Source: a virus
DNA: 25,015 nucleotides
IMG/VR virus record: IMGVR_UViG_3300017782_000202
Coordinates: 1-25,015 of that record
Strand: one strand, 5' to 3'
Shown one piece after another: positions 2,142 through 25,015 of the stretch (position 1 is its first letter; the number at the start of each line of letters is the position of its first letter). The translations under genes were made by a program, and so were the position numbers. Under the pieces are notes generated by a model. The model was not told the origin of the DNA, searched no databases, and saw nothing but the letters and a program-made list of their open reading frames with translations.

Positions 2142-5100
2142 ATGCCTATTAATAAAAACTTAAACCAAGCACCATACTTCGATGACTATGATGCCGAAAA
2201 GCAGTTCTATCGAGTTATGTTCAAGCCTGGCTATGCTATACAGGCAAGAGAACTTACACAACTCCAGACTATGCTGCAAAATCAGGTCGAGTCATTCGGA
2301 GATAATATTTTCAAAGAAGGTTCAATCGTAAAAGGTTGTAACTTTACAGAACTTGACGATCTTCAATATGTAAAATTAAATGACGGTCCAACAGGATTTA
2401 ATGCAGAAGCATATATCAGTGGTCCTGCAGTTGAAACACTCGGCGGTCAAGAAGTTGAACTTGATTATGTTTATGAAGTATCAGGTGCTTCTTCTGGCCT
2501 TAAAGCAGAAATTGTTCAAGCAGCAAAAGGTTTCCAAACAAGACCACCAAATCTAAATACTTTCTTTATCAATTATACTAATATTGGTAACGCAGGACAA
2601 ACTCAATTCCAAGCTGGTGAAGCTTTAGTTGTAACGAGATACAAATATCTCAGAGGAACAAGTACCGAAGCATTAACAGTTAATGTTGTAATTAATACCG
2701 ATCTTACAGTTTTCCAATCTCCTTCAGCAGGTAATCCTCATGTTGGTAGAGCCTTTGGTATTGAAGCTGCTCCTGGTATTATATTTCAAAAAGGTCATTT
2801 TATATTTACAGCAGAACAAAGATTGGTTGTTGAAAAATATACCAATGTTGCCGATGCAAAATCAGTTGGTTATTTAGTATCTGAATCACTTATCAATGCT
2901 TTACAAGATAACAGTTTATACGATAACGCAAACGGTTCCAAAAACGAAAACGCACCTGGTGCAGATAGATTACAACTTGTTCCTACATTAACAGTATTAG
3001 AAAGTTCTGAAGCAACTGCAAATTCTGACTTCTTTACATTAGCTCGTTATCAAAATGGTAACGCAATTACTGTTCGTGATGTTTCTCAATATAATGTTCT
3101 TGGTGAAGAAATGGCTCGAAGAACATACGAAGAGTCAGGAAACTATATCCTAGAGCAATTCCCATTAACAACTGATGACCGTGCTGGTGAAGTTCAAGTT
3201 GTTGTTGGACCAGGTACAGCATATGTTAAAGGTTATAGAGTAGAAAATTCTGGTGAACGTTCATTCCAAATAGATCAAATAGCATCAACCGAAACAATTG
3301 AGAATCAAAATATCTCAATGGAATATGGAAACTATTTTGAGATTGATAATTCATCTGCCTCACAAGGTTATTTAAATCTTGGTATATTATCAGTAGTTGA
3401 TGCTCAAATAGCAAACAGCAGTTCAGCAGGTTCTGTTTTAATTAAGAACATTACAGATAAAAGAGTTTATGTTCATTATAATATTTTCAATGGCGCAGCA
3501 GGAACACCAGTTAGAGACATTACTAAATTAAGTGATGGTAATGGTGATGTACCTGTTAAAACAAATAGTTTAGGTGCTCCTGTTATTAAAGAGACAGGAA
3601 GAAAGGCATTAATATTTGATACAGGTGTAAATGGAGTATTCTCAACAAGCAATACTCTTATTCCTTGTAGAGCACAAAATGCAAGTAGTGCAACAACAGG
3701 AACAATTACATTAACGGCAGGACCAGGAGAAGACTTTAATTGTCTTAACGATGATATTAGAGTTAACCAAGGTGGAACTACTTATCCTGTTATAAGTACA
3801 ACTACTGCATTAAATAATTCACAACTTAATATTGTTTGTGATTCAGGTTTAAGCGGATCAGTAGAAGTATTTTATAATAAGAGACAAATTGGATCCTCAG
3901 GTGGAATTTCTCCATACGCTAAAAACGAACGTGATACGTTTGTGAAGTTTAACTATACAGGTGTACAAGCAAAATATAGTTTAGGTTTCCCTGATGTATT
4001 TAAGATTGTAAGTATTGTAGATTCAACAGGCGCAGATTTTACAAACAGCTTTAGATTAAAATCTAATCAGAGAGATACTTTTTACGATCTATCTTATGTA
4101 GAATATATTGAAGGTCGACCACAACCAAGTGGATTGATGACAGTTAATCTAAAATGTTTTGAAGTAAATACTGCTACAGGTTCTTACTTCTTTACAATTA
4201 ATAGTTATCCTAATACTTTGAATAGATATGATATTCCTTCATATGTATCAGAGTCAGGACAAGTATTTAACCTAAGAGATAGTTTTGATTTCAGAGCACA
4301 TGTCGATAAAGATACTGCTGCAAATTATTCGGCAACCATAGGTAATGCTCCAACGATTACTCAACAGGTTGGGTTTAATCCAATTACTTTTAATGATAAA
4401 GGTGCACCGCTTGTACCTGCGGCTCAACAATCATTACAAACAGATATAGAACATTATCTTTCAAGAATAGATACAGTTGCATGTGATTCTTATGGAGAGA
4501 TAATTTTAATTAAAGGTGAAGAATTAAAGAACGCAAAACCACCTAAACTAACAACAGATCAATTAGCAATCGCAAACGTTGAGATTCCAACTTATCCTGC
4601 ATTGTCTAAGAAACAATCCGATGTTCTTCGTAAAGATGATTACGCAATCAAGCCAAGAGCAACTGGAATTAAAAACTTTACAATGAAAGATATGCACAAT
4701 CTTGAGAAGAAGATTGATAACATGGCATATTATATTTCATTAAATCAATTAGAATCAGAAACTGATAATTTAATTGTTAGAGATGAGAATGGATTAAATA
4801 GATTCAAGAATGGATTTATTGTGGATCCATTTAATAACTTATCGTTATCAGAAATTTCTCATCCGCAATTTAATGCTGCTGTACCATTTAATCAAAAGAT
4901 ATTAACTCCTTCGTTAAAAACATTTGCATTGGATTTAACATATGATTCAGCAACAGGATCGTCTATCTTCCCAAGTACTGCTGATGCAAAGGTTGGTGTA
5001 ATTGGTAGAGATTCAAATGTTGAAGTAATTAATCAGCCTTATGCTTCTAACTTTAGAAACTGTGTAAGTAACTTTTATAAGTATGTAGGTGATGGAGCTA

Positions 5101-9053: not shown

Positions 9054-12000
9054 ATGGCAAAAATTTCAGAACTACCTCCGATTACTGGTGCCAATACCAG
9101 AACAGAAGACCTGTTCGTTATTGTCAACCTTGTCCAAGGAGACGACGGTACAAGTAATATTACTAGGAAAGAATTAGTTGAAGCAATTCAATACGAAATC
9201 TTTGCTAGGATTCAAATTACAGGTGGAAACATCTCTGGCGTTATCCTGCGCGATTCTCGTATTGATAATGTCCAAATGGACAATTCTGAAATTGAAGATA
9301 CGGCTTTCCTAAGAGGTAACATCGACGATACACTGATGACAAACAGTGTAGCCAACAATATCACAATCGGTTCATCTTCATTCAGTGATGGTGAAATCTT
9401 TGACTCAACCGCTAACAATGTTGTCATTACAAATTCTGAGTTAAATGACAGTATTGGTAATAATAATGTATTCACTACTACAGAGTTACTTGGTGGAACT
9501 GCCAACGACTTTATTATTACAAGTTCAGAGTTCAATGATGGTACTGCTAACAACGTAACAATTACATCTTCAAAATTATTTGACAGTGAAGCAAATAATG
9601 TCATCATAACAAATTCAGAGTTCAACGAAGGTACAGGTAATAATGTAATCTTAACGAACTCAACAATTGATGATTCTTCTATTACAAATTCAACAGCAAA
9701 TAATGTTGTCATCGAAGCCTCCGAGTTTAATAACGGTGATATTAGTGATAGTGATATCGTTAATGGTACGATGGATAATACTGACATTACTAATGCCACC
9801 TATACAGACGGTGATATTGATAATGCAGTTATTATCAATTCTGATTTCTCTGATGGAACAATCGAAGATTCTACTGCCAACAATATTGTTATAACACAAT
9901 CTGAGTTTAATGACGGTACAGGAAACAATGTTGTCCTAACTAATTCAACGATTGATGATTCTACGCTTTCTGATAGTGTTATTACTAACAGTGAATTCCA
10001 AGGTGTAATGGATAATGTTGTTGCGACTAACATGTCAATTGGTAGTTCAACTGCTGATGGCCTTGGTGCAAATAATTCTTCATTCGATAATGGTACTCTT
10101 GGTGGATCGACATTTACAGGTGGTGTAATTGATAGATCACAACTTGTCGACTTCGACATGGATCTCAATAACGAATTTGAAGCTCCAATGGATGATGAAT
10201 CCTATTTCGCAATTCGTAACGAAAAGACAGGTGATACAGAACAAATTAACTTTGGTCAACTATTCGACGAAGTATCTAAGAAAACAGCACAAGCTTTAAA
10301 GGTTCATGCTGATGCAGGATCTGGTGATGATAAAAACCCAGGTACTCAATTACAACCTGTAAGAACATTAGAAAGAGCATTTGAACTTTGTTTAGAAAAA
10401 GCAGGTGGCGAATTAAATCGTAACGCAATTAATAACGCTGTTCATATTTCAGTAGGTCCTGGTACTTATTATACAAAAGGTAATCTTCAATTACCTGATG
10501 ACTGTTCTTGTACTTCAACTGCAGGTCAGTATGCTACAGTTATCGAACTACTTCCTGGATACGAAAACAATAACGGAATCTTAGTTGGTTCTGGTGGTTA
10601 TGTTCAAGGATTTGGTTATCAAAACTTTAAGGTTGATAACTTTGATTTCCCAGAAGGTGGATTTGCGATTGCTTATCGACCAGGTGCCAAACTATTACGT
10701 TCACCTTACTTAAGAGATAGTACTCAGTTATCTAACTTCTTACGTCAAGATGTTGAACCACCTCTTAACCCTTATAATTCAAAAGGTACTCTTGCTGACC
10801 TTGGTCAAACATTTGTACTTGAAACAAATATTACTGGTAATAACATTGACCCACTTCTAAGTTTATGGAAACTTGATGATGAAGTTGTATTCTCATCTGG
10901 TGCTATAGGTTACTTATCTTGGGATGATTCATTAGACGCACTCAAAGGTACAGTTCCTGGTGATGTTAATCAGACAAGAACAATCAGAGTTCGTAACCTT
11001 AAGAACGGTCAAGGATTTAAAGTTGGAGATACAGTAACATCAGAATCTGGTGGAACAGGTGTTGTCCAATCCATTGGAATTGACGACTTCCCTAACAGAG
11101 CGGTTGGTCGTGGTGGCGGTTGTGTACTTGCAGATAGAAGAGTACTTGATACCGATTCATTATATACATACGTACTTTGTTTTGGTTTCACACCTCGTAC
11201 TCAAAACGGTTTAGGATATGTTGCTAGAGACGGTGCTGGTGTTAACGGTATTGGTTCATTGTCAATCTTCGTTCGTTGTGCATTCTATGCATTGAATGGT
11301 GGTCAAATGACGCTGAACAACTCAGGTACTCAGTTCGGTGATATATCAATGAGAGCAAAAGGAACAACTCAGTTCTTTGCTCCAAAAGCAACAGCAGTAC
11401 CTATTATTGGTAATACTGCCTTCGCAGAATCAATTGATTACGGTGCAGACGAAATTATTGAAGATGTCGTTGAATACCTTACAGCCAATACTGCCAACGG
11501 CGGATTAGGTTATCAAGAATACGATTCAGAAAAATGTTTAAGAGATTCAGGTATTGTACTTGATGGTACAGGATACGATGTTGCTCTCGATACCAACTAT
11601 TGGGGTCGTTTAGGTGGTATTACTTATAGATCACCTATCAGTTACGTTGTACCTGGAGAACAGTTACAAGAAACAAAAGGTTCATTAGAATACCTAAGAG
11701 ATAGAACAAAAGAAATATTTGTTTCAGGTAATTCTGAAATCAACGAACGTATTGAAACATCCTTTAGAGAACTTCTAAATGTATTAGAGTACGGTGAAGA
11801 GAACATCAACCCGATTATATGGCAAGATACTTCTGTTCCTTATACCGCAGCTAGACATCTTTTACAAGATAACAAAGATTTAATTACAACAGATTTAATT
11901 GATTGGATTGAGAACAACGATGAGTTCTATGCTTACGATAGTAAAGCTTGTCGTAGAGATGTATCTGATTATATTATTCCTGCTGTTAAAAACGATATGT

Positions 12001-15000
12001 TATTTGACACAAACTATAACTCAGTAACTGCAGGTCGTGCATATTACATGGCTGCTGCAAAAACTGTTATGGAAAATCAGAATAACGAAACGGTTGCAGC
12101 ATACAAGAGATTGAAAGATCAAACAAATGAATTGGTTGATGGAGATTCATACGTTGCTTCTGATCGTCTTGATGATGCATACGATAACATTTTAGAAATC
12201 CTTCAGAACAAAGGAAAACAGTTTACTCCTACTGCCGCAACTTATGACCCAGAAACTGGTTTATCAGTTATCACACTCGGCAAAACAACTGGACTTACGG
12301 TATCAAACGCAACCTACGATCCTGCTACAGGAATCATGGAAGCAACTGTAGGTTCACATACACTAGAAGTTGGTGATCATATATGGATAAAACCTGAAAG
12401 TATTACATTTAGTTGTAATATGGGAGGAGGTGAACAGAATCACGCAGTTCCTGAAGCTCACCACCCATACTATAACAAACCATGTCCTATCATAGGAACA
12501 TCTGCTACAACGATTATAATGAATGTTGGTACAGGTGGATCAGGTCAAGTACCTCATACGTTTGTTTCAGCAACACCTAACGCGTTTACAGCAGGTCATA
12601 GTTTGGCTGCAGGTCGTTATGTATTATTGAAAACAGGTGGATTGGTATTTACTTGTGACAGAGATAATAATACAAAGAGAACAGGTTACCCAAGAGCTAC
12701 TGACCCAGCAGCAGGAACACCAGTTGAGGTTATAGGTTCTAACGCAAAATCAATTACAATTAATGTTGGTAAATCAGCAATTGTTGATGATCATACATTT
12801 GTTGAAGCTTTACCTAATGCAGTATCTATATTAGGGGATGATATTAAATGGTCAGAAGACTCAAGTATATCTGTTAATAAGATAAATGCAAGAAAGCAAT
12901 TACAAAGAAACAAAGAATTCATTCAAGATTTAATTGAAGGTTATATTGAAGATACTTATTATAGATACGATTCTAACAAGTGTCGTCGAGATGTAACTTC
13001 TTATATCTTACCTGCAGTTGAAAGAGATATTCTAACAGGAACAAACTATAACGCAGTTCAAACTGGTATTGCTTATAGAGCAGGTACTACACTTGCTGAT
13101 AATGTTATTAATAATCAGTTAGTAGAAACATTAGGTTCAATGGAAACATTGAAGCAGGAATTAATTAGTACAACACCTGGTGCTCAGTTTACACCAACAA
13201 CTGCAACTTACGATCCTGCTACAGGAAAGTTTGAAGCAACAATTGGTCAGCATAGTTTATTACCTGGAGATTATGTAAGATTCTCTGATGGTGGTATTGT
13301 GTTTAGTTGTGATACAGGAAGCGGAGTTCAAAACGACGCTGTTCCTGCTGCGCATCATCCTTACTTTAATCATCCTTGTCCGATCGAGGCAGTTACTTCT
13401 ACAACTATTATAATGAATGTAGGTACAGGTGGAACAGGACAATATCCGCATACGTTTGTTTCTGCAGCTGCTAATTCAATTACAGAAGTTAAGGCGTTAT
13501 CTGACGAAGCATCAAGACATAGAACAGTAGAGAATATTGATAAAGTTAAAAATATTCTAAATTCTGGTAATAAGATCTATACTCCATCTAATGCAACATA
13601 TGATCCTGTAACTGGTTTAACGGTTATTACAATTGGTGCTCACGATTTACAAGTCGGAGAAGAAGTATTACTTGCACCTAACAGTTTAACATTTACTTGT
13701 GCAACTGATGGTAATGCATCTCAACATACTTACCCAACTCAAACAGTAACTAACTTTACTCCAACTGATGCAAGTTATGATCCAGCAACCGGTGAATTTA
13801 CAGCGGATATAGGTACTCATAAATTACAGGTTGGTGATGAGATCGAGTTCGCAACTCGTGGTATTACATTTACTTGTGCAATAGATAATAATCAAACTCA
13901 ACACTCTGCACCTGAACCACATCATCCTTTCTACAAGAAGGCAGTTAAAATTACTTCTGTAAATGGAAACGTAATTGGAACTAATGTTGGAGCAGTTGCT
14001 AACGGCGGTGGAACTCATACATTTGTATCTGCTGTCACAGGAGCAATTAAAGGAACAAGAAATCATCCTGCATACAAGAAGCCTGTCGTTGTTGCACAAA
14101 CAACATCTACATCGTTTACAGTAAATGTAGGTACAAGTACTGATACTTCAACTCATACATTTGTTTCTGCTACATCAGACAGTGTTAAAACTGCTAAGTA
14201 CAATTCAACATATACTCCATACGATGCAACGTATAACGCAGTAACTGGCGTATTTACAGCATCAATTGGAAAACACAATTTGGAAGCTGGTGATACGATT
14301 GTTATTAAACCAAATTCAGTAATCTTTACTTGTACTTTAGATGGCGGTGTTACAGAACATGCTGCGCCGGCTAAACACCATCCTGCATATAAGACCCCTG
14401 TAAGACTTACAGAAGTTACTGCCGATACAATTACAATGAACATCGGAACAGGTACTGGTGGTACTCATACATTCGTTAGAGCGGATGCTGGGGCAATTGA
14501 CACGGATGGTTTATTCTTTACTGATCCTGCATCTTATGTCAAGCATTACACTCCAACTACAGCAACATTTGTTCCTGCTACTGGGTTAAGTGATATAACA
14601 ATACCAGGACACGATTTAACAACAGAAGATTATGTTGAGTTCGCTCCATACGCATTTACATTTACTTGTTCTCAAGATGGTGATGCAACTGAACATTCAT
14701 ACCCAAGAAAAGGCGATGTAAACTACATGCAGCCAATGAACATTACAGCAATCGTTGGTGATGTTGTTACTGTTGATATGGGTATCGCAGGTACAGCAGG
14801 TGGAGTACATACCTTCGTATCAGTAATCAAAGACGGTGTTTCAAAATCTACTTATAAATCTCAAGGTCAATACGCAAGAGAACAACTACAACAAAACAAA
14901 GACTTCTTGGCTAAGGAAGTATCCGCTTACTTGGATACCCAATACTTTGTATTTGATGGAGAAAAATGTTCAAGAGATTCAGGATTCATTCTTGATTCTG

Positions 15001-18000
15001 TAAGACGTGATATGGCAACAAACTCAACTTGGAACTCTCAGTTCATGGGTCTAGGATATAGAACCGGTTCTGTAGGTGCTAATAAAGTTATTGACGATCA
15101 GTTGGTTGAAACAGTTGCGGCAATTAATTATCTTAAAGCTCAAGTTGCAGCAGATCCTTCAGTAACAGGAGTTGCGTTAACAAGAACAAATCAACATTTT
15201 GATAAGATCATTGATATCATGCAAAATGGTTCAGCAAACATTGGCACAAAACAATGGGGTGCAACTGCCGCGTTAAGTAATAACCATAATGATGCTGGTA
15301 ATATCTTAATTACAAACAGAGCATTTATTATTGCTGAAACTACTGCTTATATTGCTCAAAATTATCCAACACTGAATTATGATACTGCTGCTTGTGAAAG
15401 AGATACAGGTTATCTTGTTGATGGTTTAATACAAGATGTTAAGTTTGGTGGAAATACATGTTCAGTTAACTTCGCAAGATTGTATTTTGAAAATGCGGTA
15501 TCAGTATTACCTGATGATCAAGTATTGCCAACATACAAAACATGGGAACATATTGCTGATGTTGTTTGGAATATCGTACGTGATGTTACTATTACTCCTA
15601 CAACAGGAAATGGTCAAGCACAGGATGATTCAGGAACTGATTACGGAATCGAAGTTGCTAACCTAGCAAGAGATAGAGTTAATATTGTAACTCAAGTAAT
15701 CAGCGACAATACATTAGATTACTTACCTGCATATATTGAACCAAATGTTGAAGATGCAATGATTGCGGCTCATGCTGCAATTGATGGTATGACAGAAAAT
15801 CTTTCTGCTTCAGTAATTGATTACTTAAGAGATGAACATAACGGATTACCTTATAAGAAAGCAACATGTGAACGTGATATCGGAATCATGGTTGATGCAA
15901 TCAGTAGAGATATTGAGTACGGCGGAAATGAAAATACATTAGAAGTATTTGATTATTACTTCCGTAGATTTGATACAACATCTGCTGATTACGAACAGCA
16001 ACGTTCAACTAACGTTTTACCAATTGAAGTAAAAGGTCAATTCAGAACATTATCTAATTACGAAGATACTGCTAACGTTTCAGGTTTAAGAGAAGCAATC
16101 AATGTATTGCCTTATGAACAACGTGAGGCAACTCAACTTGCATTTAACAGACTTGCAGGGTTGGCTGCTCCTGTCGCTGCAGGTACTCAACAAACTTCAT
16201 CTTATACAACATTCGGAGTTTCATCTGCAACCTACGATCCTGCTACAGGAATTTATGTTGCTGATATTGGTACTCACAGTTTTGATGTTAATGCTGAAGT
16301 ATATCTAAAACCAAACGGTGTAACATTCAGTTGTGATATGGGTAGTGGAGTTGCGAATCATACTTCACCACAGAAACATCATCCTTATTACAATAAAGCA
16401 GTTAAAATTATTGCTACAACCTCAACTACAATTTCAATGAATGTAGGAACAGGTGGTTCAGGACAACAACCACATACATTCGTATCCGCTGATGCAGATG
16501 CAATTAGTATGGGTCCATATCATATTATAGATGGAACTGTGGCAAGTTCTGCTAAGGCTGGAGAAGTTGCACAATTAATTTACTCAGTATCTAATTTAAT
16601 TGATAAGACCAATATTGAAGATTCTGAAATGCCAACATTAACTAAGGCTTCGTTTGATCCTAACAGAACATTGGCAAGAAAGCAATTAGTAAGAAACAGA
16701 GACTTCATCATCGAAGAATTACAAGGATACCTCAAAGATCGTTACTACGTATTTGACGGTGACAAATGTAAGAGAGATGTTGGAATGATTATCGACGCAG
16801 TTAGGACTGATGTATTAACAGGCGGTAATCAATCAGCAATATTTAATGGCCTTGCATATAGAACAGGTTCTGCTGGTGCTGACGTAGTTATTAACGAACA
16901 GTTAACTGAAACAATAAAAGGTATTGAGTTCGCAAGAGATAAAGCAATTGAGGCTGTAGTTGACGGTGAAATGAAACGTAGAACAGAAACTGCGTTTAAT
17001 GAAGTTATTGATATAATGACTAACGGTCGTGCTAACGCTGATGCAATTGATTATACAAATACATCACCTTCAACTGAAAGAATTAATGCAAGATCTCAGT
17101 TACAAAATAATAAAGCATTCTTACAAGCTGAAATTACAGCATGGCTTGCTGCTAACAGACCTTCACATAGTTACGATGTTGCTAGATGTGAAAGAGATAC
17201 AGGTTACTTAATTGATGCCATTGCAGCTGATGCTCAATACGGTGGAAACTTTGCTACACTGAACGATGCAAAACTTTACTTTGAAAATGCGGTATCAGTA
17301 TTACCTGCAGATCAAAGAGAACCAACGGCTGCTGCATTTGCTCACCTTGGTGATTGTGCTGAACTTATTTGTTTAGATACTGATATCGGTGGACTTAAAT
17401 CTGCTGGTAACGGTGAAACTCAATCATTCGCAGGTGGAACTGCTCAGGCTGCTATATCTGCTGAAGTAGAATCACTATTTGATATTGTTGCTGACTCAAT
17501 TACCAATAACACAATGTTACTTTCTCCTAAGGTTGTAATGCCTGATGAAACAAACGCAGTATGGGGTGCAACAGCAACTGCTGCTTACCTTGCACTTGAC
17601 GGAATTAAGGATTCAGTTTCTACTTCGTTACTTGCTCATCTGTCAGAGTTCTATCAAGTATTACCTTACAGTGAAACAAAATGTCGAAGAGATACAGGAT
17701 ATATCATCGATGCACTTTGTCACGATATTCAATACGGTGGTAATGCGGCATCAGTTCAAACTGCAGGAATGTATTTTGAGAATGCTGTAAACACTGGATT
17801 ACAAATCGAACAAAGAATGGGTACAAGAGATGCATTCTTACACTTGGCAAAAATTGTAGAACACGTTGTTGGTGGTAAAGATATTACAACTACTTTATAT
17901 CCAAGAACAGGAAAATACTACACAGGTGATATTGTAACTAAATACGATTATTGGAATGGCCTACCTTCATATCAAACTGTAGAAGCACAGGATATGGTTG

Positions 18001-19991
18001 CGGTTGGTGCAAATCCAAATACTTGTAAAGAAGCAAGAAAACTTGTTGAAATTGTTGCCAACGCAGTTGATGATAATATTGAAACAAGAAACACAATACC
18101 TGAAAGAATTGATGTATTACAAACTTGGATGGGTGATAACTACATTACTTCTAAAGAGGTTGTAGAAAGAAGATCTTCAATCTTGGCAGAATCAGTAATT
18201 ACATATCTATCAAGTACTCATAACGCGTTAAGTTTCCCTGAAGCAAAATGCAGAAGAGATATCGGTTATATTATCGACTCAATCTCTCATGATGTACAAC
18301 ACGATTCTAACTTTGCTACATTACAATCAGCAGGTATATACTTCGAGAACGGAGTATCAGTACTTCCTGTAGATACTAAAACTCAATACGCTGATGTATT
18401 ACAATTACTAGGTGATGTTGTTGAGCAGGTTGTTCAAGAAACTCCAGTAACTAATGCAAGTAATTATACATTAACTCCACAGAATACTGTAGGTACAGCT
18501 GCTACGGCTCTTGAAGGTACTCAGGTACATGATCTTGTTGCTGTCATTGAGAATGTCGTAAGAGCTGATGATACAGATGAAATACCATTACCTACTGAAA
18601 CTGCAAGTTGGGTTGATGCTACATTAAGGAATGTTGGTACTAAACTTGATAACAATACAGAGGAACTTGCTTCTGATGTAACTGAATATATCAATAGTAA
18701 CTTTAATGTACTTGATTACAACAAAGCAAAATGTAGAAGAGATACAGGATTCTTACTCGATGCATTCAGCTTCGACTTAAACTTCGGTGGTAACAGTGCT
18801 TCAAGATGGAATGCTGATTTCTACTTCTGGAATCAAATTTACAGATTGCCTGAAGATCAAAGAATACCGACTGCAAAATCATACCGTCACTTAGGTAGAA
18901 TTTGTAAGGATATCGTATTAGGTGAATACCCAGGTCAAACAATACTTGGTGAACTCGCAACTGAAGTCGAAAGTAAGAAGGTTGAAGAATTAGCAAATAT
19001 CTTCTATAAGACACAATTATATAACGATACTAAGTACTTACCTGTATTAATGGAACCTGATTACACATTCAGTAATTCAATATTTACCGATGCTCAAAAC
19101 ATTATCGGTCAAAGAAGAAAAGAATTACAGAAAGATACTGTAAGACATGTTAACTCTGCTTACAACTTCGTTGATATTAATTTAACAAGAAGGGATGCAA
19201 GAAACTTATTAACTGCTGTCTATAATGACTTTGCTTACGATAAGTTCAATCCTGATGTTCCACAACCTACATATAGTGATAATGGTTCTCAGAATGCTGT
19301 AAGAACATTTACCGCGTCGTTCTTTAACTATGACGGTACTCATGTATTCCCAGTATTCAATCCAACAATGCAAGGTCTGAAATACAGAGGATCAGTTAAT
19401 TCCTTCGCAGATCTAAGTAGTGTTACTGGAATGAAACCTAACTATGCTTATATTGTTGCCACTGATATTACAGTAAGTAACTTTACCGGTGATATATATT
19501 ATTGGAATGGTACCGCTTGGACCTTAGAAGGTGCTAACGATACAACGTTATTGGATGCATTTGTTGGTTCATGGGATAGAATGAAAACTTACATTACAAC
19601 AAATCTATCACCTGACGCTGAACATACCGCAATGGTTAATGGATTATTTGACGACTGTCTGAAAGACAACGTATTAAGACCTGAAACATTGATCTTCGGA
19701 TCATTGGTTGAATCCATTGCTCACCAGTTCAACGGTGCATCGGCTGGTGTTAACAGAAACGCATTACCTCTGAACTTCAGAAACTTAGGTGCTGCTATAT
19801 CGGCGATTGCTTCGGTACTCAATGAAAACGGTGGACGTATTCGTTGGTCAGGTGCTGATGAATTGAATAACCAGTACTTCGCAAGAGGTCTAAGAATTAA
19901 CGGTAGAACAGGTCGTATTGAAGGCCGACCATTTACTTCTTCGGTTCGTAAGTTAGCAAGACGTGCTTCGAACTCGAGAGCGGTAGTTTAA
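9054..19991 (+). CDS. Giant modular tail or fibre protein, 3645 residues
   Basis: One unbroken frame of 3645 codons. I recognise the type from marine T4-like phages but know of no established function. Order of parts: a short N-terminal domain (residues 1-60); 51 pentapeptides (61-315); a linker; a beta-helix-like region (about 418-800) opening with the pectate-lyase-fold-like motif SGDDKNPGT..QPVRTLERA; then a long mosaic (about 800-3380) of alpha-helical repeats with an invariant C-x-R-D motif, mixed with eight beta-modules marked ATYDPATG ... HTFVSA; and a conserved C-terminus (QFNGASAGVNRNALP; RGLRINGRTGRIEGRPF) with a basic tail. Cys is confined largely to the repeat motifs. No signal peptide or membrane segment is apparent. 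The size and solenoid modules suggest a long extended fibre or host-contact structure. The start is fixed by AAGGAA 10 bases upstream and a late promoter box. Its place in the virion is unknown. Confidence 0.85.
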   Translation: MAKISELPPITGANTRTEDLFVIVNLVQGDDGTSNITRKELVEAIQYEIFARIQITGGNISGVILRDSRIDNVQMDNSEIEDTAFLRGNIDDTLMTNSVANNITIGSSSFSDGEIFDSTANNVVITNSELNDSIGNNNVFTTTELLGGTANDFIITSSEFNDGTANNVTITSSKLFDSEANNVIITNSEFNEGTGNNVILTNSTIDDSSITNSTANNVVIEASEFNNGDISDSDIVNGTMDNTDITNATYTDGDIDNAVIINSDFSDGTIEDSTANNIVITQSEFNDGTGNNVVLTNSTIDDSTLSDSVITNSEFQGVMDNVVATNMSIGSSTADGLGANNSSFDNGTLGGSTFTGGVIDRSQLVDFDMDLNNEFEAPMDDESYFAIRNEKTGDTEQINFGQLFDEVSKKTAQALKVHADAGSGDDKNPGTQLQPVRTLERAFELCLEKAGGELNRNAINNAVHISVGPGTYYTKGNLQLPDDCSCTSTAGQYATVIELLPGYENNNGILVGSGGYVQGFGYQNFKVDNFDFPEGGFAIAYRPGAKLLRSPYLRDSTQLSNFLRQDVEPPLNPYNSKGTLADLGQTFVLETNITGNNIDPLLSLWKLDDEVVFSSGAIGYLSWDDSLDALKGTVPGDVNQTRTIRVRNLKNGQGFKVGDTVTSESGGTGVVQSIGIDDFPNRAVGRGGGCVLADRRVLDTDSLYTYVLCFGFTPRTQNGLGYVARDGAGVNGIGSLSIFVRCAFYALNGGQMTLNNSGTQFGDISMRAKGTTQFFAPKATAVPIIGNTAFAESIDYGADEIIEDVVEYLTANTANGGLGYQEYDSEKCLRDSGIVLDGTGYDVALDTNYWGRLGGITYRSPISYVVPGEQLQETKGSLEYLRDRTKEIFVSGNSEINERIETSFRELLNVLEYGEENINPIIWQDTSVPYTAARHLLQDNKDLITTDLIDWIENNDEFYAYDSKACRRDVSDYIIPAVKNDMLFDTNYNSVTAGRAYYMAAAKTVMENQNNETVAAYKRLKDQTNELVDGDSYVASDRLDDAYDNILEILQNKGKQFTPTAATYDPETGLSVITLGKTTGLTVSNATYDPATGIMEATVGSHTLEVGDHIWIKPESITFSCNMGGGEQNHAVPEAHHPYYNKPCPIIGTSATTIIMNVGTGGSGQVPHTFVSATPNAFTAGHSLAAGRYVLLKTGGLVFTCDRDNNTKRTGYPRATDPAAGTPVEVIGSNAKSITINVGKSAIVDDHTFVEALPNAVSILGDDIKWSEDSSISVNKINARKQLQRNKEFIQDLIEGYIEDTYYRYDSNKCRRDVTSYILPAVERDILTGTNYNAVQTGIAYRAGTTLADNVINNQLVETLGSMETLKQELISTTPGAQFTPTTATYDPATGKFEATIGQHSLLPGDYVRFSDGGIVFSCDTGSGVQNDAVPAAHHPYFNHPCPIEAVTSTTIIMNVGTGGTGQYPHTFVSAAANSITEVKALSDEASRHRTVENIDKVKNILNSGNKIYTPSNATYDPVTGLTVITIGAHDLQVGEEVLLAPNSLTFTCATDGNASQHTYPTQTVTNFTPTDASYDPATGEFTADIGTHKLQVGDEIEFATRGITFTCAIDNNQTQHSAPEPHHPFYKKAVKITSVNGNVIGTNVGAVANGGGTHTFVSAVTGAIKGTRNHPAYKKPVVVAQTTSTSFTVNVGTSTDTSTHTFVSATSDSVKTAKYNSTYTPYDATYNAVTGVFTASIGKHNLEAGDTIVIKPNSVIFTCTLDGGVTEHAAPAKHHPAYKTPVRLTEVTADTITMNIGTGTGGTHTFVRADAGAIDTDGLFFTDPASYVKHYTPTTATFVPATGLSDITIPGHDLTTEDYVEFAPYAFTFTCSQDGDATEHSYPRKGDVNYMQPMNITAIVGDVVTVDMGIAGTAGGVHTFVSVIKDGVSKSTYKSQGQYAREQLQQNKDFLAKEVSAYLDTQYFVFDGEKCSRDSGFILDSVRRDMATNSTWNSQFMGLGYRTGSVGANKVIDDQLVETVAAINYLKAQVAADPSVTGVALTRTNQHFDKIIDIMQNGSANIGTKQWGATAALSNNHNDAGNILITNRAFIIAETTAYIAQNYPTLNYDTAACERDTGYLVDGLIQDVKFGGNTCSVNFARLYFENAVSVLPDDQVLPTYKTWEHIADVVWNIVRDVTITPTTGNGQAQDDSGTDYGIEVANLARDRVNIVTQVISDNTLDYLPAYIEPNVEDAMIAAHAAIDGMTENLSASVIDYLRDEHNGLPYKKATCERDIGIMVDAISRDIEYGGNENTLEVFDYYFRRFDTTSADYEQQRSTNVLPIEVKGQFRTLSNYEDTANVSGLREAINVLPYEQREATQLAFNRLAGLAAPVAAGTQQTSSYTTFGVSSATYDPATGIYVADIGTHSFDVNAEVYLKPNGVTFSCDMGSGVANHTSPQKHHPYYNKAVKIIATTSTTISMNVGTGGSGQQPHTFVSADADAISMGPYHIIDGTVASSAKAGEVAQLIYSVSNLIDKTNIEDSEMPTLTKASFDPNRTLARKQLVRNRDFIIEELQGYLKDRYYVFDGDKCKRDVGMIIDAVRTDVLTGGNQSAIFNGLAYRTGSAGADVVINEQLTETIKGIEFARDKAIEAVVDGEMKRRTETAFNEVIDIMTNGRANADAIDYTNTSPSTERINARSQLQNNKAFLQAEITAWLAANRPSHSYDVARCERDTGYLIDAIAADAQYGGNFATLNDAKLYFENAVSVLPADQREPTAAAFAHLGDCAELICLDTDIGGLKSAGNGETQSFAGGTAQAAISAEVESLFDIVADSITNNTMLLSPKVVMPDETNAVWGATATAAYLALDGIKDSVSTSLLAHLSEFYQVLPYSETKCRRDTGYIIDALCHDIQYGGNAASVQTAGMYFENAVNTGLQIEQRMGTRDAFLHLAKIVEHVVGGKDITTTLYPRTGKYYTGDIVTKYDYWNGLPSYQTVEAQDMVAVGANPNTCKEARKLVEIVANAVDDNIETRNTIPERIDVLQTWMGDNYITSKEVVERRSSILAESVITYLSSTHNALSFPEAKCRRDIGYIIDSISHDVQHDSNFATLQSAGIYFENGVSVLPVDTKTQYADVLQLLGDVVEQVVQETPVTNASNYTLTPQNTVGTAATALEGTQVHDLVAVIENVVRADDTDEIPLPTETASWVDATLRNVGTKLDNNTEELASDVTEYINSNFNVLDYNKAKCRRDTGFLLDAFSFDLNFGGNSASRWNADFYFWNQIYRLPEDQRIPTAKSYRHLGRICKDIVLGEYPGQTILGELATEVESKKVEELANIFYKTQLYNDTKYLPVLMEPDYTFSNSIFTDAQNIIGQRRKELQKDTVRHVNSAYNFVDINLTRRDARNLLTAVYNDFAYDKFNPDVPQPTYSDNGSQNAVRTFTASFFNYDGTHVFPVFNPTMQGLKYRGSVNSFADLSSVTGMKPNYAYIVATDITVSNFTGDIYYWNGTAWTLEGANDTTLLDAFVGSWDRMKTYITTNLSPDAEHTAMVNGLFDDCLKDNVLRPETLIFGSLVESIAHQFNGASAGVNRNALPLNFRNLGAAISAIASVLNENGGRIRWSGADELNNQYFARGLRINGRTGRIEGRPFTSSVRKLARRASNSRAVV
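9234..9998 (+). repeat. 51 uninterrupted pentapeptide repeats in the giant protein
   Basis: Residues 61-315 divide without any gap into 51 units of five, from SGVIL to the last TNSEF. The consensus is [TNDS]-[ND]-[SGV]-x-[ILF]. The fifth residue is a large hydrophobic in most units and Ala or Gly in about ten. From about unit 12 to unit 27 the Ala/Gly units come every third unit, giving a 15-residue super-repeat (NNVVI TNSEF NDGTG). This differs from the classic A-[DN]-L-x-x pentapeptide because the Asn/Asp lies on the other side of the hydrophobic residue. A right-handed beta-solenoid is the natural reading. The register was checked against base coordinates at both ends. Confidence 0.85.
10305..11450 (+). 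other. Beta-helix-like region of the giant protein
   Basis: Residues about 418-800 begin with HADAGSGDDKNPGTQLQPV and RTLERAFE, the usual opening of phage and bacterial pectate-lyase-like beta-helices (SG.D.NPGT..PF.T...A). They continue with ISVGPGTYY, short Gly/Asn-rich strands (GILVGSGGYVQGFGYQNF) and RAKGTTQFF. Such folds often carry glycan-binding or depolymerising activity, but I cannot see a catalytic signature here. Limits are approximate. Confidence 0.55.
12222..12840 (+). repeat. Beta-module copy A split by a nested copy B
   Basis: Copy A opens at 12222 with ATYDPETGLSVITLG and stops near 12280. A complete copy B follows at about 12303-12590 (ATYDPATG ... HTFVSATPNAF). The missing remainder of A then resumes at 12594 with GHSLAAGRYVLLKTGGLVFTC and ends with DDHTFVEALPNAV by about 12840. 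The join GLSVITLG plus GHSLAAGRYV matches the uninterrupted order in copy D, GLTVITIGAHDLQVGEEV. B therefore sits in the first loop of A. Confidence 0.68.
13188..13491 (+). repeat. Beta-module copy C
   Basis: A complete uninterrupted copy of the roughly 100-residue module: FTPTTATYDPATG, IGQHSLLPGDYV, IVFSC, AAHHPYFNHPCPI, TIIMNVGTGG and HTFVSA in order. It follows a C-x-R-D helical unit and a short linker. Like copy B it has a second Cys in the PCPI segment. Confidence 0.75.
13578..14195 (+). repeat. Beta-module copy D split by a nested copy E
   Basis: Copy D runs from 13578 (YTPSNATYDPVTG) through LTFTCATDGNASQHTYP to about 13748 and then breaks off. A complete copy E occupies about 13755-14057 (FTPTDASYDPATG ... 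HTFVSAVTGAIKG). The second half of D then resumes at 14058 with RNHPAYKKPVVV and ends at HTFVSATSDSV. The break lies in the loop after the FTC strand, a different point from that in copy A. Confidence 0.68.
14211..14850 (+). repeat. Beta-module copies F and G in tandem
   Basis: Copy F (14211-14508) reads YTPYDATYNAVTG ... VIFTC ... APAKHHPAYKTPV ... THTFVRA. Copy G (14547-14850) reads YTPTTATFVPATG ... FTFTC ... EHSYPRKGD ... VHTFVSV. G lacks the HHP.Y segment and has the alternative YPR type, like the resumed part of copy A. The two are separated by a 13-residue linker, and G leads into the next helical unit. Confidence 0.72.
15486..15513 (+). repeat. 28-base direct repeat, copy 1
   Basis: These 28 bases, encoding the FENAVSVLP segment of the fifth helical unit, are identical to 17280-17307. 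The surrounding units are clearly diverged in sequence, so this is a short tract of exact identity within an older repeat. Confidence 0.75.
16212..16512 (+). repeat. Beta-module copy H
   Basis: A lone complete copy (SSATYDPATGIYVADIG ... VTFSC ... QKHHPYYNKAVKI ... HTFVSA) inserted between two C-x-R-D helical units, about 1.4 kb from copy G. Its opening shares 26 consecutive bases with copy B (16227-16252 against 12309-12334), so the copies are related at DNA level. Confidence 0.73.
17280..17307 (+). repeat. 28-base direct repeat, copy 2
   Basis: Identical to 15486-15513 and in the same codon register, encoding FENAVSVLP in the eighth helical unit. The two copies are 1794 bases apart. Confidence 0.75.
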
Positions 19992-20489: not shown

Positions 20490-23400
20490 ATGTCCAGATT
20501 TGGTACAATAACAGGAAAGAATCAATTACTTGGTTACGGTATACCGCAGCCATATCCGATTACACTTGACCCCGTACCTTACGAGGGTGCACTTGTATAT
20601 GCTGATAATGATAAGGTATATTACTCCGATGGTACCCAGTGGAAAGAATTCTTAACCGATAGTGGTGTAACACAAAGCGCGATCTTACCATTTGCTTTCA
20701 TGAGAGTTGATGGTACAACTCCAACAGGAACAAGTATTACAGCTGCAAATTGGGATGTAGCTAATGGTACTTTAGATCTTACATTTGCTACTGCTCAACC
20801 TGATACTGATTATACTGTTGTAACTGATGGTGAGTTTCAAGATGATACAAGATTTGTATCAGTAAATAATAAAACAGTAAATGGATTTCAGATTGCATTA
20901 TATGACGGAAATGGAGCTGTTGTAACACCAAGTACAACAGAAGCGTTTACTGTTATGGTATTTGCTTCAGATCCTGTTACTCAAGTTGGTGCAGGTGTTC
21001 AAGGTTTCTCAGGAGCTCAAGGTGCTCAAGGTACACAAGGTGATTACGGTCCTGGCTTCGATATTATTGGTTCAGTACCAGATGTTGACTCAGGTGGAGA
21101 TCCTCAAGCAACATTAAATACAGCCTTTGGTTCTGCTGTTGTTGGTAATGCTGTCATTGATGACGCAGACGAAGAAATCTGGGTATATGATGGATCTGTT
21201 TGGATTAACCTCGGTACATTCCGTGGAGTTCAAGGCTTACAAGGTGTACAAGGCGATCAAGGTGTTCAGGGTCAATTAGGTTACGAAGGTATTCAAGGTG
21301 AAAGAGGATTCCGTGGCTATCAAGGTGTTCAGGGTAATCAAGGAACGCAAGGTATTCAAGGTGACTTAGGTTTCCAAGGAACGCAGGGACTGCAAGGAAC
21401 ACAAGGTAACCAAGGCTTTACTGGTATTCAAGGTGACTTAGGTATACAAGGTACTCAAGGTGACCAAGGGGTTCAAGGAACTCAAGGCTTTACTGGTATT
21501 CAAGGAGACGATGGTCTACAAGGCTATTCAGGTACTTATGGTGGAGTATCATTTGAGTTTGATTACGACGCATCTACAATTGCTTCAGATCCAGGTGTTG
21601 GTGGTTGGGCAATTAATAATACAGACCCTTCTCTTGCTACGGCAATGTTTATTGACCAAGAAGCAAAAAATAATAAAGATGTATCTGCCTTATTAAACAG
21701 TATTGATTTAGTAGCAGGACCAGTTAAAGGTTATATACAACTTACAAGAATTTCAGATATTCAAGAGTTTATTACTTTTGAAATTAATGATGTAACTGAC
21801 AACACAGGTTGGTTAACATTACAAATTAGTCATGTAGCAAACAGTTCAGGTGTATTCACAAACGTTGCATCAGATCCTGCATTTATACTTTCATTTGGAA
21901 GAGTTGGTACTCAAGGTGTTCAAGGTACGCAGGGATTCATTGGTATTCAAGGTGACCAAGGTACTCAAGGTGTTCAAGGTACTCAAGGATTTACTGGAGC
22001 TCAAGGTGAAGTAGGTTCACAAGGAAGTCAAGGTTTACAAGGCGATCAAGGTACTCAGGGATTACAAGGCGATCAAGGTACTCAAGGTTTACAAGGTGAT
22101 CAGGGTCTACAAGGTAATACTGGTGACTTTGGTGGAATCAGTTATAACTACGAATACGATAATAATACAACAGATGCCGACCCAGGTACAGGTATTATAA
22201 GGTTTAGTGATACTTCACTCTCATCTTCAGGTCTTAAGTTATGGATTGATGATGAAGACGAAGGTACTAACAATGTTATGGACGGTCTTGCTGCTGAGCT
22301 TGACGCAATTGTTGGAGATCCTAAAGGTTATGTTCGTATTGTTGATGAAACAAATATTTACAATCAACTATTACTTAGAATTGATGTAATAACAGATAAG
22401 ACTGGTTATTGGGAATTTGAAGTTGTAAGAATTAGTGGTGCAACGTCTTTAAGCAACGGAACTGGTGTTAAAGTAACTTTCTCAAGAAACGGTGATCGTG
22501 GTATTCAAGGACCACAAGGTACTCAAGGATTACAAGGCGATCAAGGTACTCAAGGATTACAAGGCGACCAAGGTGTTCAAGGAACTCAAGGTAACCAAGG
22601 AACGCAAGGTTTCCAAGGATTACAAGGGGAAGCCATTCAGGGTGTTCAAGGTGACCAAGGAACGCAAGGTATTCAAGGTACTCAAGGCGACCAAGGTGTT
22701 CAGGGAACTCAAGGCTTTACAGGTGGAACTGGTGCTCAGGGTGCACAAGGTACTCAAGGATTACAAGGACTTCAAGGTGAGCAAGGCGAATACGGTGGTT
22801 TAACATTTGTATGGAATTATAGCTCTAACGTTGTTGGTGGTACTGATCCAGGCTCAAACAACTTTAAGTTCAATAATTCTAATCCTCAACTTGCTACATT
22901 AATTACACTTGACGATGTTCCTGCTGACCAATTTACAACAGAGATTGATGCTTTATTAGATTATATTGATTCTTTCCCAGGATCACCAAAGGCTTATTTA
23001 AAAATTCAAATAGGTGCAGGCGGAGATCCAGGTCCTGGCGGACATCATTGGTTAGTTTACGAAATTACAGATTGGACTTGGGATTCAGGTGCTAAGAATT
23101 ACGGTTACTTTGATGTTGTTTATATTGATGGTAATGCTTCAAGTTGGACAACAGTTACTTCTTCTCATGGAGTTGAAACGTTATTAACATTTGTTCCTCG
23201 TGGCCCAGCTGGTATTCAAGGACCTCAAGGTACACAGGGTTTCCAAGGATTCCAAGGTTTAATTGGTCAAGGTACACAAGGTACTCAAGGCATTCAAGGT
23301 ACGCAGGGTGATCAAGGTGAATCTGGATCGTTCGGTGGTATTACTTTTGACTATACCTTTAAAACAGATACAGTTAACAACTCACCTGGTATCGGTGGAT

Positions 23401-25015
23401 TAAAATTCAATAACAGTACTTATTCTTCTGTTACCGCCACTTATATCGGTGATAGAGATGATAACTTTGTTAATATTGAACCTTTCCTTAGAACAATTGA
23501 TGATTCTACAAGTCCTATTAAAGGTCACTTTAGAATTACTAAGAAAGGTACTCCAGAAACATTCCAAATATTTACAATCTCTGCTCTTACAGAGGTTACA
23601 GGTTACTTTATTATATCATCCGCTTTTGTAAGTGGTAATGGTACATTTGTTGATAATGAAGATGTTACTATTACATTCGCAAGAACAGGTGATACTGGTT
23701 CAACAGGTAGTCAAGGTGTTCAAGGTACTCAAGGCGTTCAAGGAACTCAAGGTGACCAAGGTCTACAAGGTAATACAGGACAAGGAGATCAAGGTACACA
23801 AGGTGTTCAGGGTACTCAAGGTGATCAAGGTGATGAAGGACCTGGCGGTGGTCAAGGTATTCAAGGTGTTCAGGGTACTCAAGGATTTACCGGAGCTCAA
23901 GGTGAGTTAGGATTCCAAGGAGCTGGTGGAGAGGGTAACCAAGGTACTCAAGGTTTACAAGGGGACCAAGGTACTCAAGGTATTATCGGTTCTGATGGTA
24001 ACGACGGTGCTCAAGGACCTGCTGGTGCTGGTGCACAAGGTACTCAAGGTACACAAGGTGTTCAGGGTGGAGCAGGTGATGAAGGTCAGCCTGGTGGAGA
24101 AGGACAACAAGGTACACAAGGATTACAAGGCGACCAAGGTACACAAGGACCACAAGGTTTTGGTGCTCAAGGTGCTGATGGATTTGGACCTCAGGGTACT
24201 CAAGGTTTACAAGGTACTCAAGGAACAATAGGTGCACCGAGTGATGTTCAAGGACCACAAGGTACTCAAGGTTTACAAGGAGACCAAGGTGTTCAAGGTA
24301 ATGATGGAACTGGTGCTCAAGGTGCTCAGGGTTATCAAGGAACTCAAGGTAACGATGGTCCTGGCGGAACCGGTCCTCAAGGTTTACAGGGAGACCAAGG
24401 TACTCAAGGCGTTCAAGGTAATCAAGGCTTCCAAGGTGGAGCTGGTGGTGACGGTATTCAAGGTGATCTCGGATTACAAGGGGATCAAGGTACTCAAGGA
24501 TTTACTGGAGATGCTGGTGTTGGTGTTCAAGGACCACAAGGTACTCAAGGTGTTCAAGGTGGACCTGGAGAGGCAGGAGCAGATTCAACAGTACAAGGAC
24601 CACAAGGTACTCAGGGTTGGTATGGACCACAAGGTGAAACTGGTGCTGGTGAAGATGGTGTTCAAGGTCCTCAAGGTTTACAAGGATTTACTGGAGATAC
24701 AGGTGGTTCAGGACCACAGGGTACAACCGGTGGAGATGGTGGCTTAGGTCAAGAAGGTCCTCAAGGTCCAGCGGGTCCAGCAGGTGGAGACGGTAGTGTA
24801 GGTGCTCAAGGTGAAACTGGTGCTCAAGGTGATAATGGTGCAGACGGTGGAGCTGGTGCTCCTGGTACTCCTGGAGATCAAGGTGTTCAAGGTGTTCAAG
24901 GTACTCAAGGATTCTTTGGAGATGAAGGACCACAGGGTGCTGCTGGTGGCGGACCACAGGGTACTCAAGGTGAAAAAGGAGATGTAGGTGGAGACGGTAT
25001 TCAGGGTAGTCCTGG
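20490..25015 (+). CDS. Collagen-like tail fibre protein with interspersed globular domains (partial, 3' end outside window)
   Basis: The frame from ATG 20490 stays open to the window edge, giving at least 1508 codons; the frame was checked at several points. Residues 1-60 (GRYG-type opening LLGYGIPQPYPITLDPVPY, then KVYYSDGTQWKEF) are followed by a beta-domain (about 66-165, with TFATAQPDTDYTVVTD). After a short Gly-X-Y stretch comes a small module ending in EIWVYDGSVWINLG. From there on, Gly-X-Y triplets, mostly Gly-X-Gln and poor in proline, alternate with four copies of a roughly 120-residue domain. The last collagen-like stretch runs from about 23690 to beyond the end. Phage collagen-like segments form trimeric rods in fibres, so this is probably a long host-contact fibre. 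AAGGAA 10 bases before the ATG supports the start. No C-terminal binding or chaperone domain is visible because the gene is cut. Confidence 0.85.
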   Translation, partial: MSRFGTITGKNQLLGYGIPQPYPITLDPVPYEGALVYADNDKVYYSDGTQWKEFLTDSGVTQSAILPFAFMRVDGTTPTGTSITAANWDVANGTLDLTFATAQPDTDYTVVTDGEFQDDTRFVSVNNKTVNGFQIALYDGNGAVVTPSTTEAFTVMVFASDPVTQVGAGVQGFSGAQGAQGTQGDYGPGFDIIGSVPDVDSGGDPQATLNTAFGSAVVGNAVIDDADEEIWVYDGSVWINLGTFRGVQGLQGVQGDQGVQGQLGYEGIQGERGFRGYQGVQGNQGTQGIQGDLGFQGTQGLQGTQGNQGFTGIQGDLGIQGTQGDQGVQGTQGFTGIQGDDGLQGYSGTYGGVSFEFDYDASTIASDPGVGGWAINNTDPSLATAMFIDQEAKNNKDVSALLNSIDLVAGPVKGYIQLTRISDIQEFITFEINDVTDNTGWLTLQISHVANSSGVFTNVASDPAFILSFGRVGTQGVQGTQGFIGIQGDQGTQGVQGTQGFTGAQGEVGSQGSQGLQGDQGTQGLQGDQGTQGLQGDQGLQGNTGDFGGISYNYEYDNNTTDADPGTGIIRFSDTSLSSSGLKLWIDDEDEGTNNVMDGLAAELDAIVGDPKGYVRIVDETNIYNQLLLRIDVITDKTGYWEFEVVRISGATSLSNGTGVKVTFSRNGDRGIQGPQGTQGLQGDQGTQGLQGDQGVQGTQGNQGTQGFQGLQGEAIQGVQGDQGTQGIQGTQGDQGVQGTQGFTGGTGAQGAQGTQGLQGLQGEQGEYGGLTFVWNYSSNVVGGTDPGSNNFKFNNSNPQLATLITLDDVPADQFTTEIDALLDYIDSFPGSPKAYLKIQIGAGGDPGPGGHHWLVYEITDWTWDSGAKNYGYFDVVYIDGNASSWTTVTSSHGVETLLTFVPRGPAGIQGPQGTQGFQGFQGLIGQGTQGTQGIQGTQGDQGESGSFGGITFDYTFKTDTVNNSPGIGGLKFNNSTYSSVTATYIGDRDDNFVNIEPFLRTIDDSTSPIKGHFRITKKGTPETFQIFTISALTEVTGYFIISSAFVSGNGTFVDNEDVTITFARTGDTGSTGSQGVQGTQGVQGTQGDQGLQGNTGQGDQGTQGVQGTQGDQGDEGPGGGQGIQGVQGTQGFTGAQGELGFQGAGGEGNQGTQGLQGDQGTQGIIGSDGNDGAQGPAGAGAQGTQGTQGVQGGAGDEGQPGGEGQQGTQGLQGDQGTQGPQGFGAQGADGFGPQGTQGLQGTQGTIGAPSDVQGPQGTQGLQGDQGVQGNDGTGAQGAQGYQGTQGNDGPGGTGPQGLQGDQGTQGVQGNQGFQGGAGGDGIQGDLGLQGDQGTQGFTGDAGVGVQGPQGTQGVQGGPGEAGADSTVQGPQGTQGWYGPQGETGAGEDGVQGPQGLQGFTGDTGGSGPQGTTGGDGGLGQEGPQGPAGPAGGDGSVGAQGETGAQGDNGADGGAGAPGTPGDQGVQGVQGTQGFFGDEGPQGAAGGGPQGTQGEKGDVGGDGIQGSP
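21055..21230 (+). other. GSVxD...VYDGSVW module between collagen-like stretches
   Basis: Residues about 189-247 read FDIIGSVPDVDSGGDPQ, then GNAVIDDADEEIWVYDGSVWINLG. This is a small beta-module often found in phage fibre proteins, typically ending in a W/Y-V-Y-x-G-x-x-W turn. A related segment (YRGSVNSFADL ... DIYYWNGTAWTLEG) lies near the C-terminus of the giant protein at about 19381-19532. Confidence 0.55.
21226..21539 (+). repeat. Collagen-like Gly-X-Gln stretch 1
   Basis: About 35 Gly-X-Y triplets, with Gln by far the commonest third residue (GVQ, GTQ, GIQ, GLQ, GNQ) and some acidic triplets (GDL, GDD). At DNA level it is a degenerate 9-base repeat based on CAAGGTxxx. Confidence 0.85.
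21540..21905 (+). other. Interspersed globular domain, copy 1
   Basis: Shares a scaffold with the three later copies: GG[VIL][ST][FY]..[DE]Y near the start, then DPG.GG, a short N/D-S segment, a helix with D.L..SID, GPVKGYI.L, a strand pair around TG[WY], and SFGR.G at the exit into collagen. Probably a beta-sandwich with one helix. I recall similar domains in collagen-like proteins of other marine phages. Confidence 0.7.
21900..22128 (+). repeat. Collagen-like Gly-X-Gln stretch 2
   Basis: About 25 triplets, nearly all GVQ, GTQ, GDQ, GLQ or GIQ. The unit GDQGTQGLQ is repeated in tandem near 22036-22100. Confidence 0.85.
22129..22490 (+). other. Interspersed globular domain, copy 2
   Basis: Opens with FGGISYNYEYD, followed by DPGTGIIRF, a helix (MDGLAAELDAIV), GDPKGYVRI, KTGYWEFEVVRISG and FSRNGD. 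Same order of elements as copy 1 with extensive divergence. Confidence 0.7.
22488..22790 (+). repeat. Collagen-like Gly-X-Gln stretch 3
   Basis: About 34 triplets of the same Gln-rich type, with a few others such as GEA, GGT and GEQ. It repeats the tandem unit GDQGTQGLQ seen in stretch 2. Confidence 0.85.
22791..23205 (+). other. Interspersed globular domain, copy 3 (longest)
   Basis: Opens with YGGLTFVWNY, then DPGSNNFKFNNS, FTTEIDALLDYID, GSPKAYLKI, an added Gly/Pro/His-rich loop (AGGDPGPGGHHW) and a strand pair around YFDVVYIDG, ending FVPRGPAG. The added loop makes it about 20 residues longer than the other copies. Confidence 0.68.
23203..23330 (+). repeat. Collagen-like stretch 4 (short)
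   Basis: About 14 triplets (GPA GIQ GPQ GTQ GFQ GFQ ...) with one break at GLIGQGTQ, where a Gly-Gln pair replaces a full triplet. Confidence 0.8.
23331..23692 (+). other. Interspersed globular domain, copy 4
   Basis: Opens with FGGITFDYTF, then SPGIGGLKFNNST, NIEPFLRTIDDS, SPIKGHFRI, EVTGYFIISSAFVSG and ITFARTGD. This copy is closest to the version I recall from other marine phage collagen-like proteins. Confidence 0.72.
23690..25015 (+). repeat. Long collagen-like stretch 5, open at the window edge
   Basis: More than 140 Gly-X-Y triplets. The first part is Gln-rich like the earlier stretches; toward the right edge, non-Gln triplets with Pro, Asp, Glu and Ala (GPA, GED, GDE, GET, GGD) become commoner. 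Several two-residue breaks occur (GNTGQGDQ, GAGGEGNQ, GPAGAGAQ, GPQGFGAQ), plus one longer break at GAPSDVQG. Such breaks normally cause kinks or flexible points in a collagen rod. Confidence 0.85.

Follow-up and report, generated by a model that had tools for sequence, protein, structure and literature searches.

A β-module interrupted by a whole module of its own type in a giant cyanophage fibre protein: evidence for recursive nesting

One module of the giant fibre protein considered here, D, appears to break off midway, to be followed by a complete module of the same type, E, and only then to be finished. Are the two flanking pieces halves of a single domain and, if so, how did a whole module come to lie inside it? 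The window analyzed is the whole stretch of 25,015 bases, which is exactly one virus record. The plus-strand ORF at 9054–19991 encodes a 3645-residue protein bearing copies of a β-module of ~98 residues. Its whole-protein profile matches (phrog_5342, tail fiber protein, E 8e-122; phrog_701, virion structural protein, E 5e-120) meet the profile-match criterion for a T4-like cyanophage tail-fibre or virion structural protein, an assignment that rests on sequence. The neighbouring ORFs encode a baseplate wedge protein (phrog_438), a DUF4815 protein, an S74-chaperone short fibre and a collagen-like product. The D/E stretch matches 268 phage records in tblastn, all with names that start with Synechococcus, Cyanophage, Prochlorococcus or Marine.

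The fibre protein also contains a pentapeptide-repeat region near its N-terminus (9678–9908, residues 209–285; PF13599, E 9e-11). The ORF at 20490–25013, of at least 1508 residues and open-ended beyond the window, combines collagen-like GxQGxQG repeats with globular repeats, each of ~100 residues, scattered among them.

A module HMM built from six complete copies divides D into columns 2–57 and 57–101 around a complete E, and divides a second module, A, into columns 1–23 and 23–101 around a complete B. A refined HMM of 98 columns, built from 167 complete modules, gives a layout that agrees with the first:

9054–19991, + strand: giant fibre or virion structural protein, 3645 residues (ORF; phrog matches)
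12222–12290, + strand: A-front, columns 1–24 of host A (HMM)
12294–12593, + strand: B, complete module within A (HMM)
12594–12830, + strand: A-back, columns 20–98 of host A (HMM)
13188–13481, + strand: C, uninterrupted module (HMM); closest paralogue of B in the window (61%)
13578–13742, + strand: D-front, columns 1–56, strands b1–b5 of host D (HMM; AlphaFold2 strands at model residues 19–66)
13743–13754, + strand: short linker between D-front and E (sequence)
13755–14054, + strand: E, complete inserted module, columns 1–98 (HMM; AlphaFold2)
14055–14195, + strand: D-back, columns 55–98, strands b6–b8 of host D (HMM; AlphaFold2 strands at model residues 193–197 and 207–212, block pLDDT 88–95)
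14211–14498, + strand: F, uninterrupted module (HMM); closest paralogue of E in the window (49%)
14547–14843, + strand: G, uninterrupted module (HMM)
16215–16508, + strand: H, uninterrupted module (HMM); 60% identical to B

Within the D/E unit (13578–14195), D-front spans residues 1509–1563, E residues 1568–1665 and D-back residues 1669–1712. The two D pieces are complementary and each is significant alone (first-HMM i-Evalues of 2e-21 for the front and 9e-11 for the back). In the A/B unit (~12222–12830), the 23 residues of A-front are weak alone (i-Evalue 9e-5, first HMM); the remaining A/B and D/E pieces are significant singly. A sequence-only reading had described D as interrupted by a complete E and completed after it, with a break point different from that in A. 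The HMM bears out both points, and places the D/E boundaries and break points within a few residues of those proposed. The nesting depth in the window is one level. With A and D interrupted, the protein does not meet the criterion for a simple tandem-repeat fibre, in which all copies are complete and lie head-to-tail.

All three pieces of D/E are under purifying selection, with pN/pS values of 0.30 for D-front, 0.33 for E and 0.36 for D-back. The nested reading would have been refuted had the second half-module always been found in relatives without the first. Instead, both D halves occur together in 54 ORFs; wherever a D half stands alone, it lies at the end of a contig or in a distant array of different construction. 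The record that makes up the window derives from a metagenome, which raises the question of an assembly or sequencing artefact, but the D/E layout is identical in more than 20 distinct, independent contigs at 60–100% identity and the same grammar is found in cultured isolates (e.g. P-SSM4, Syn1 and S-TIM4). An artefact can for practical purposes be dismissed.

The D/E unit was modelled with AlphaFold2 using 23 nested homologues, with no alignment row stitched across the insertion. The resulting model (pLDDT 90.2, pTM 0.75) contains strands 1–5 in D-front. D-back supplies strands that D-front lacks: its strands coincide in position with strands 7 and 8 of E, and two short strand stretches fall at strand 6. 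The strands of E itself map to columns of about 4–9, 14–18, 29–32, 37–41, 49–52, 63–70, 73–77 and 88–93. On this basis D is broken in the loop between predicted strands 5 and 6 (the ‘YP|RxxDP’ loop) and A is broken between strands 2 and 3. The prediction supports a single eight-stranded domain formed jointly by the D halves, on which E sits as a distinct domain with the same fold; a model in which the halves did not form one fold, which would have counted against nesting, was not obtained. Contact between D-front and D-back is inferred from strand content and model confidence rather than measured, and there is no experimental structure.

A fold search of the D/E model identified no significant solved relative of the module; the best matches are to the phi92 endosialidase (4hiz, E 0.0047) and Uba6 (E 0.018), neither of which is significant. 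Profile matches to the endosialidase β-barrel (PF12195) or E1 FCCH type are similarly weak (best E 0.023). PF12195 (End_beta_barrel) scores 14.6 bits and does not meet its gathering cut-off of 35, and the Pfam profile test gave no match of the fibre module to E1_FCCH. These two families are the best leads for the module, but with scores below the cut-offs membership is not shown. The baseplate wedge protein (147–2126) contains an E1_FCCH-like stretch at residues 297–371, 0.1 bit under the Pfam cut-off, that resembles in type this weak fold match. Separately, the alignment profile of the module front has a 40-residue sequence match to the iota-carbonic anhydrase 7c5x (E 6e-5).

Relatives in which D is uninterrupted and E is missing, which the sequence-only reading had proposed as a check, were found in the same C-D-F-G order. 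In L130 (and likewise L131, L132 and L142) D is whole and E is absent. Columns 1–54 of the L130 D are 54% identical to D-front of the window and 44% to E, columns 57–98 are 46% identical to D-back and 32% to E, and the two modules that follow have F and G as their best overall matches. The whole D of L133 gives 56% to D versus 42% to E for the front and 49% versus 37% for the back; the corresponding values for L141 are 52% versus 44% and 49% versus 32%. Three further relatives (L019, L069 and L072) conserve the C-D-F-G order and the flanking helices, but identity does not separate D from E, and the orthology of D in these cases rests on gene order alone. At the other site, A is whole in L012, L014/L015, L034, L038–L040, L045 and L047, each of which has D/E nested. 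These uninterrupted A modules are 95% identical to A-front over columns 1–20 and, over columns 24–98, 73–82% identical to A-back and 33–36% to B. The empty-site case is stronger for A/B than for D/E.

The same piece order is predicted if, in a row of three tandem modules X-Y-Z, two deletions removed the back of X and the front of Z, leaving two halves that flank a whole module and a D that was never one domain. The modest identities of D to the outgroup modules leave some room for such an origin. However, both D halves are closest to one single module in L130 and in L133, the identities given above tie A-front and A-back to one uninterrupted module, and break columns coincide exactly and repeatedly at four loops across the family (see below), a pattern that two independent deletions would not produce. 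The empty-site modules already largely refute a two-deletion origin, and we consider it very improbable.

The order of the two insertions can be read from a tree built from the F-to-post-G region. Relatives in which both D and A are empty lie outside; lineages with D nested and A empty are basal in a single nested clade, and A-nested lineages lie inside it. One A-empty member, L118 (IMGVR 3300021425_000158), falls inside the A/B-nested clade, where its empty site may mean that B was precisely lost or that an exchange with a phage lacking B took place. Because of the empty-site relatives and this topology, we infer two nesting events with E-into-D first: the evidence supports a single entry of E into a D that had earlier been uninterrupted, in the ancestor of the clade that contains the window, and a later entry of B into A at the other loop. 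Of the two origins offered by the sequence-only reading, independent nesting events are the one supported. Two recombinations in register could not alone yield a front, a whole and a back, because exchange between tandem copies in register is inferred to give whole modules only.

The likely sources of the guests lie nearby. Outside nested sites, the closest match to E is the module at the F position in relatives without E (61%), and its closest match within the window is F; B is closest to C-position modules (66–68%) and, in the window, to C and H. Each guest resembles the module next downstream of its host, which suggests local copying, with a signal blurred by age. Since in-register exchange would not suffice, we infer that copies of neighbouring modules were pasted into loops via illegitimate or non-register recombination. 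The host would tolerate its guest because the N- and C-termini of the module are inferred to be close in space, such that a whole module replaces a turn and leaves the host unbroken. The expected outcome is lateral bulk, with side domains protruding from the fibre, rather than added length. By inference, these side domains probably alter or add surface for host-cell binding. The suggestion that nesting is a route of fibre growth fits guests that look like copies of the neighbours F and C and relatives in which they are absent, and fibres seem to gain modules internally as well as by end-to-end addition.

We surveyed 291 loci, comprising 148 non-redundant ORFs with 528 uninterrupted modules in the non-redundant set. 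One HMM matches all hosts and guests; inserted modules can themselves act as hosts, and one host may be interrupted twice. Fronts, wholes and backs follow bracket order in P-SSM4, S-TIM4, Sf-FP1 and P-RSM6, and at least one nested join is present in 23 of the 24 cyanophage isolate regions sampled. The ends of fronts and the starts of backs cluster at four loops (columns 20–30, 55–56, 71–76 and 81–85), all between predicted strands, which bears out the proposal that several loops of the module tolerate an insertion. At the first three sites we counted 18, 12 and 12 distinct host lineages (≤50% identity).

Joins were counted as the maximum non-crossing matching of complementary broken ends, with shuffled piece order as the control. 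The 148 proteins contain 492 such joins, compared with 203 ± 9.7 (maximum 237) after shuffling, which excludes a chance origin. When only HMM hits and the first three sites are used, the count is 251 versus 95 ± 9. Perfect balance is found in 104 of 185 arrays (9.1 ± 3.2 when shuffled) and in 64 of the 120 arrays with at least six broken ends (0.2 when shuffled). The arrays are interrelated; these statistics measure order and overstate independence, and they do not count independent origins. Many of the misses in the 81 imperfectly balanced arrays are inferred to be short or diverged pieces below detection, and some may be real orphan halves. The deepest array described here, L267 residues 1571–2738, contains 19 pieces on five levels and is fully balanced with no remainder; P-RSM6 reaches four levels. 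Generalizing from these arrangements, the pieces close in a last-opened, first-closed order, like matched brackets.

Tandem repeats make up most fibres, and this family, too, has many uninterrupted modules, as the survey count attests. Could the arrays be plain tandem repeats in which the divergence or truncation of some copies has led to a misreading? Shuffled order falls far short of the observed complementarity, non-crossing order and balance, empty sites exist, and both D pieces are conserved under purifying selection. We find next to no support for this explanation.

In residues ~3245–3305 of the P-SSM4 protein (L022) and ~2069–2131 of L020, both long-known cyanophage proteins, there are runs of short ‘GGNYTHTFVSATSNGV’-type repeats. 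The best reading of these runs is that they supply the last strands still missing from earlier-opened modules, not that they are degenerate repeats. In L101, a stretch at residues ~3561–3811 that looks LamG-like by eye comes after a module whose break is at the fourth site; the stretch may be an unrelated domain type inserted at the same loop.

A second AlphaFold2 model addresses closure in a deep array. The modelled segment of L146 contains opener 2, opener 3, a whole module and closers 3, 2 and 1, with opener 1 deliberately omitted (pLDDT 92.9, pTM 0.84). Closers 3 and 2 have strands and pLDDT values of about 94–98. Closer 1, whose sequence is nearly equal to that of closer 2, falls from pLDDT 72 to 57, has no strand and is the sole disordered closer. 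This is the outcome predicted beforehand, in which only closer 1 is left without a partner. An end effect may contribute, as closer 1 is the C-terminus of the model, where confidence tends to drop; a comparable terminal strand in the D/E model nevertheless kept a pLDDT of about 94. A fold search of the deep-array model returned only generic fibronectin-like β proteins (TM about 0.1–0.17).

Fibre proteins are often trimers, and in such an assembly the D halves might complement each other between chains or, as a domain-swapped variant, exchange strands with E. Swapping of elements has been described for some recursively inserted HABAS domains (PMC11515920). Against this arrangement, the single-chain model is confident throughout D/E and disorder in the deep L146 array is confined to the closer that lacks its own opener. 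We regard complementation between chains or strand swapping as unlikely.

The reading we strongly favour is that D is interrupted in its b5/b6 loop by a whole module of the same type, that D/E formed first and B/A after it, that the family nests recursively and that the halves of a host form one fold. With somewhat less assurance, we think it probable that the giant fibres of T4-like cyanophages follow a recursive, bracket-like grammar: four loops accept modules of the same family, HTFVSA closers complete the hosts in reverse order, the fibre branches and thickens internally, and closely related phages differ in which loops are filled. The HTFVSA repeats, although seemingly degenerate, would then be the last strands of earlier modules. 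Because they complete those modules, repeat counts and domain boundaries obtained by linear reading would be wrong. Nested modules also provide natural material for engineering insertable domains, and a system for asking how a nascent chain folds when several other domains are finished before one that was begun earlier.

Clear homologues of the fibre protein among phrog_5342/phrog_701 cyanophage proteins (P-SSM4 gp7-like AAX46881 and S-TIM4 ORF_101) have the same modules and nested joins. Their records carry plain product names, and the annotations and papers we found do not describe nesting; text searches limited to an open-access library gave no report of such insertions in the fibres of phages or in structural proteins of cyanophages. 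Ordinary nested insertion of the A1-B1-C-B2-A2 type, as in NdhH (PMC13114784), is bracket-like in the same way, but there host and guest belong to different families, whereas in the fibres they belong to one. Recursive self-insertion is itself already known, and the nearest precedent is the HABAS (sandwich-barrel hybrid motif) domain of cyanobacterial RNA polymerase β' Si3 (PMC11515920, PMC13114784), where up to six levels are reported (PMC13114784) and one host may hold several guests. As in Si3, a small β domain is repeatedly inserted into its own copies; guest and host belong to one domain family (a single HMM matches D-front, E and D-back); the host is split at a loop between predicted strands into complementary halves; and nesting in the family goes beyond the one level seen in the window. 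The fibre module differs from HABAS in fold and in the protein that carries it, and no HABAS homology appears among the Pfam, PDB-sequence or Foldseek matches listed for it. Si3 is known from experimental structures, the fibre module from predictions only. Si3 is also one striking cellular case, a single conserved region, whereas in these abundant marine phages self-insertion appears to be a routine building principle that recurs in many arrays throughout a phage family. Close relatives there differ in whether a site is empty or filled, which makes the evolution of nested domains directly testable.
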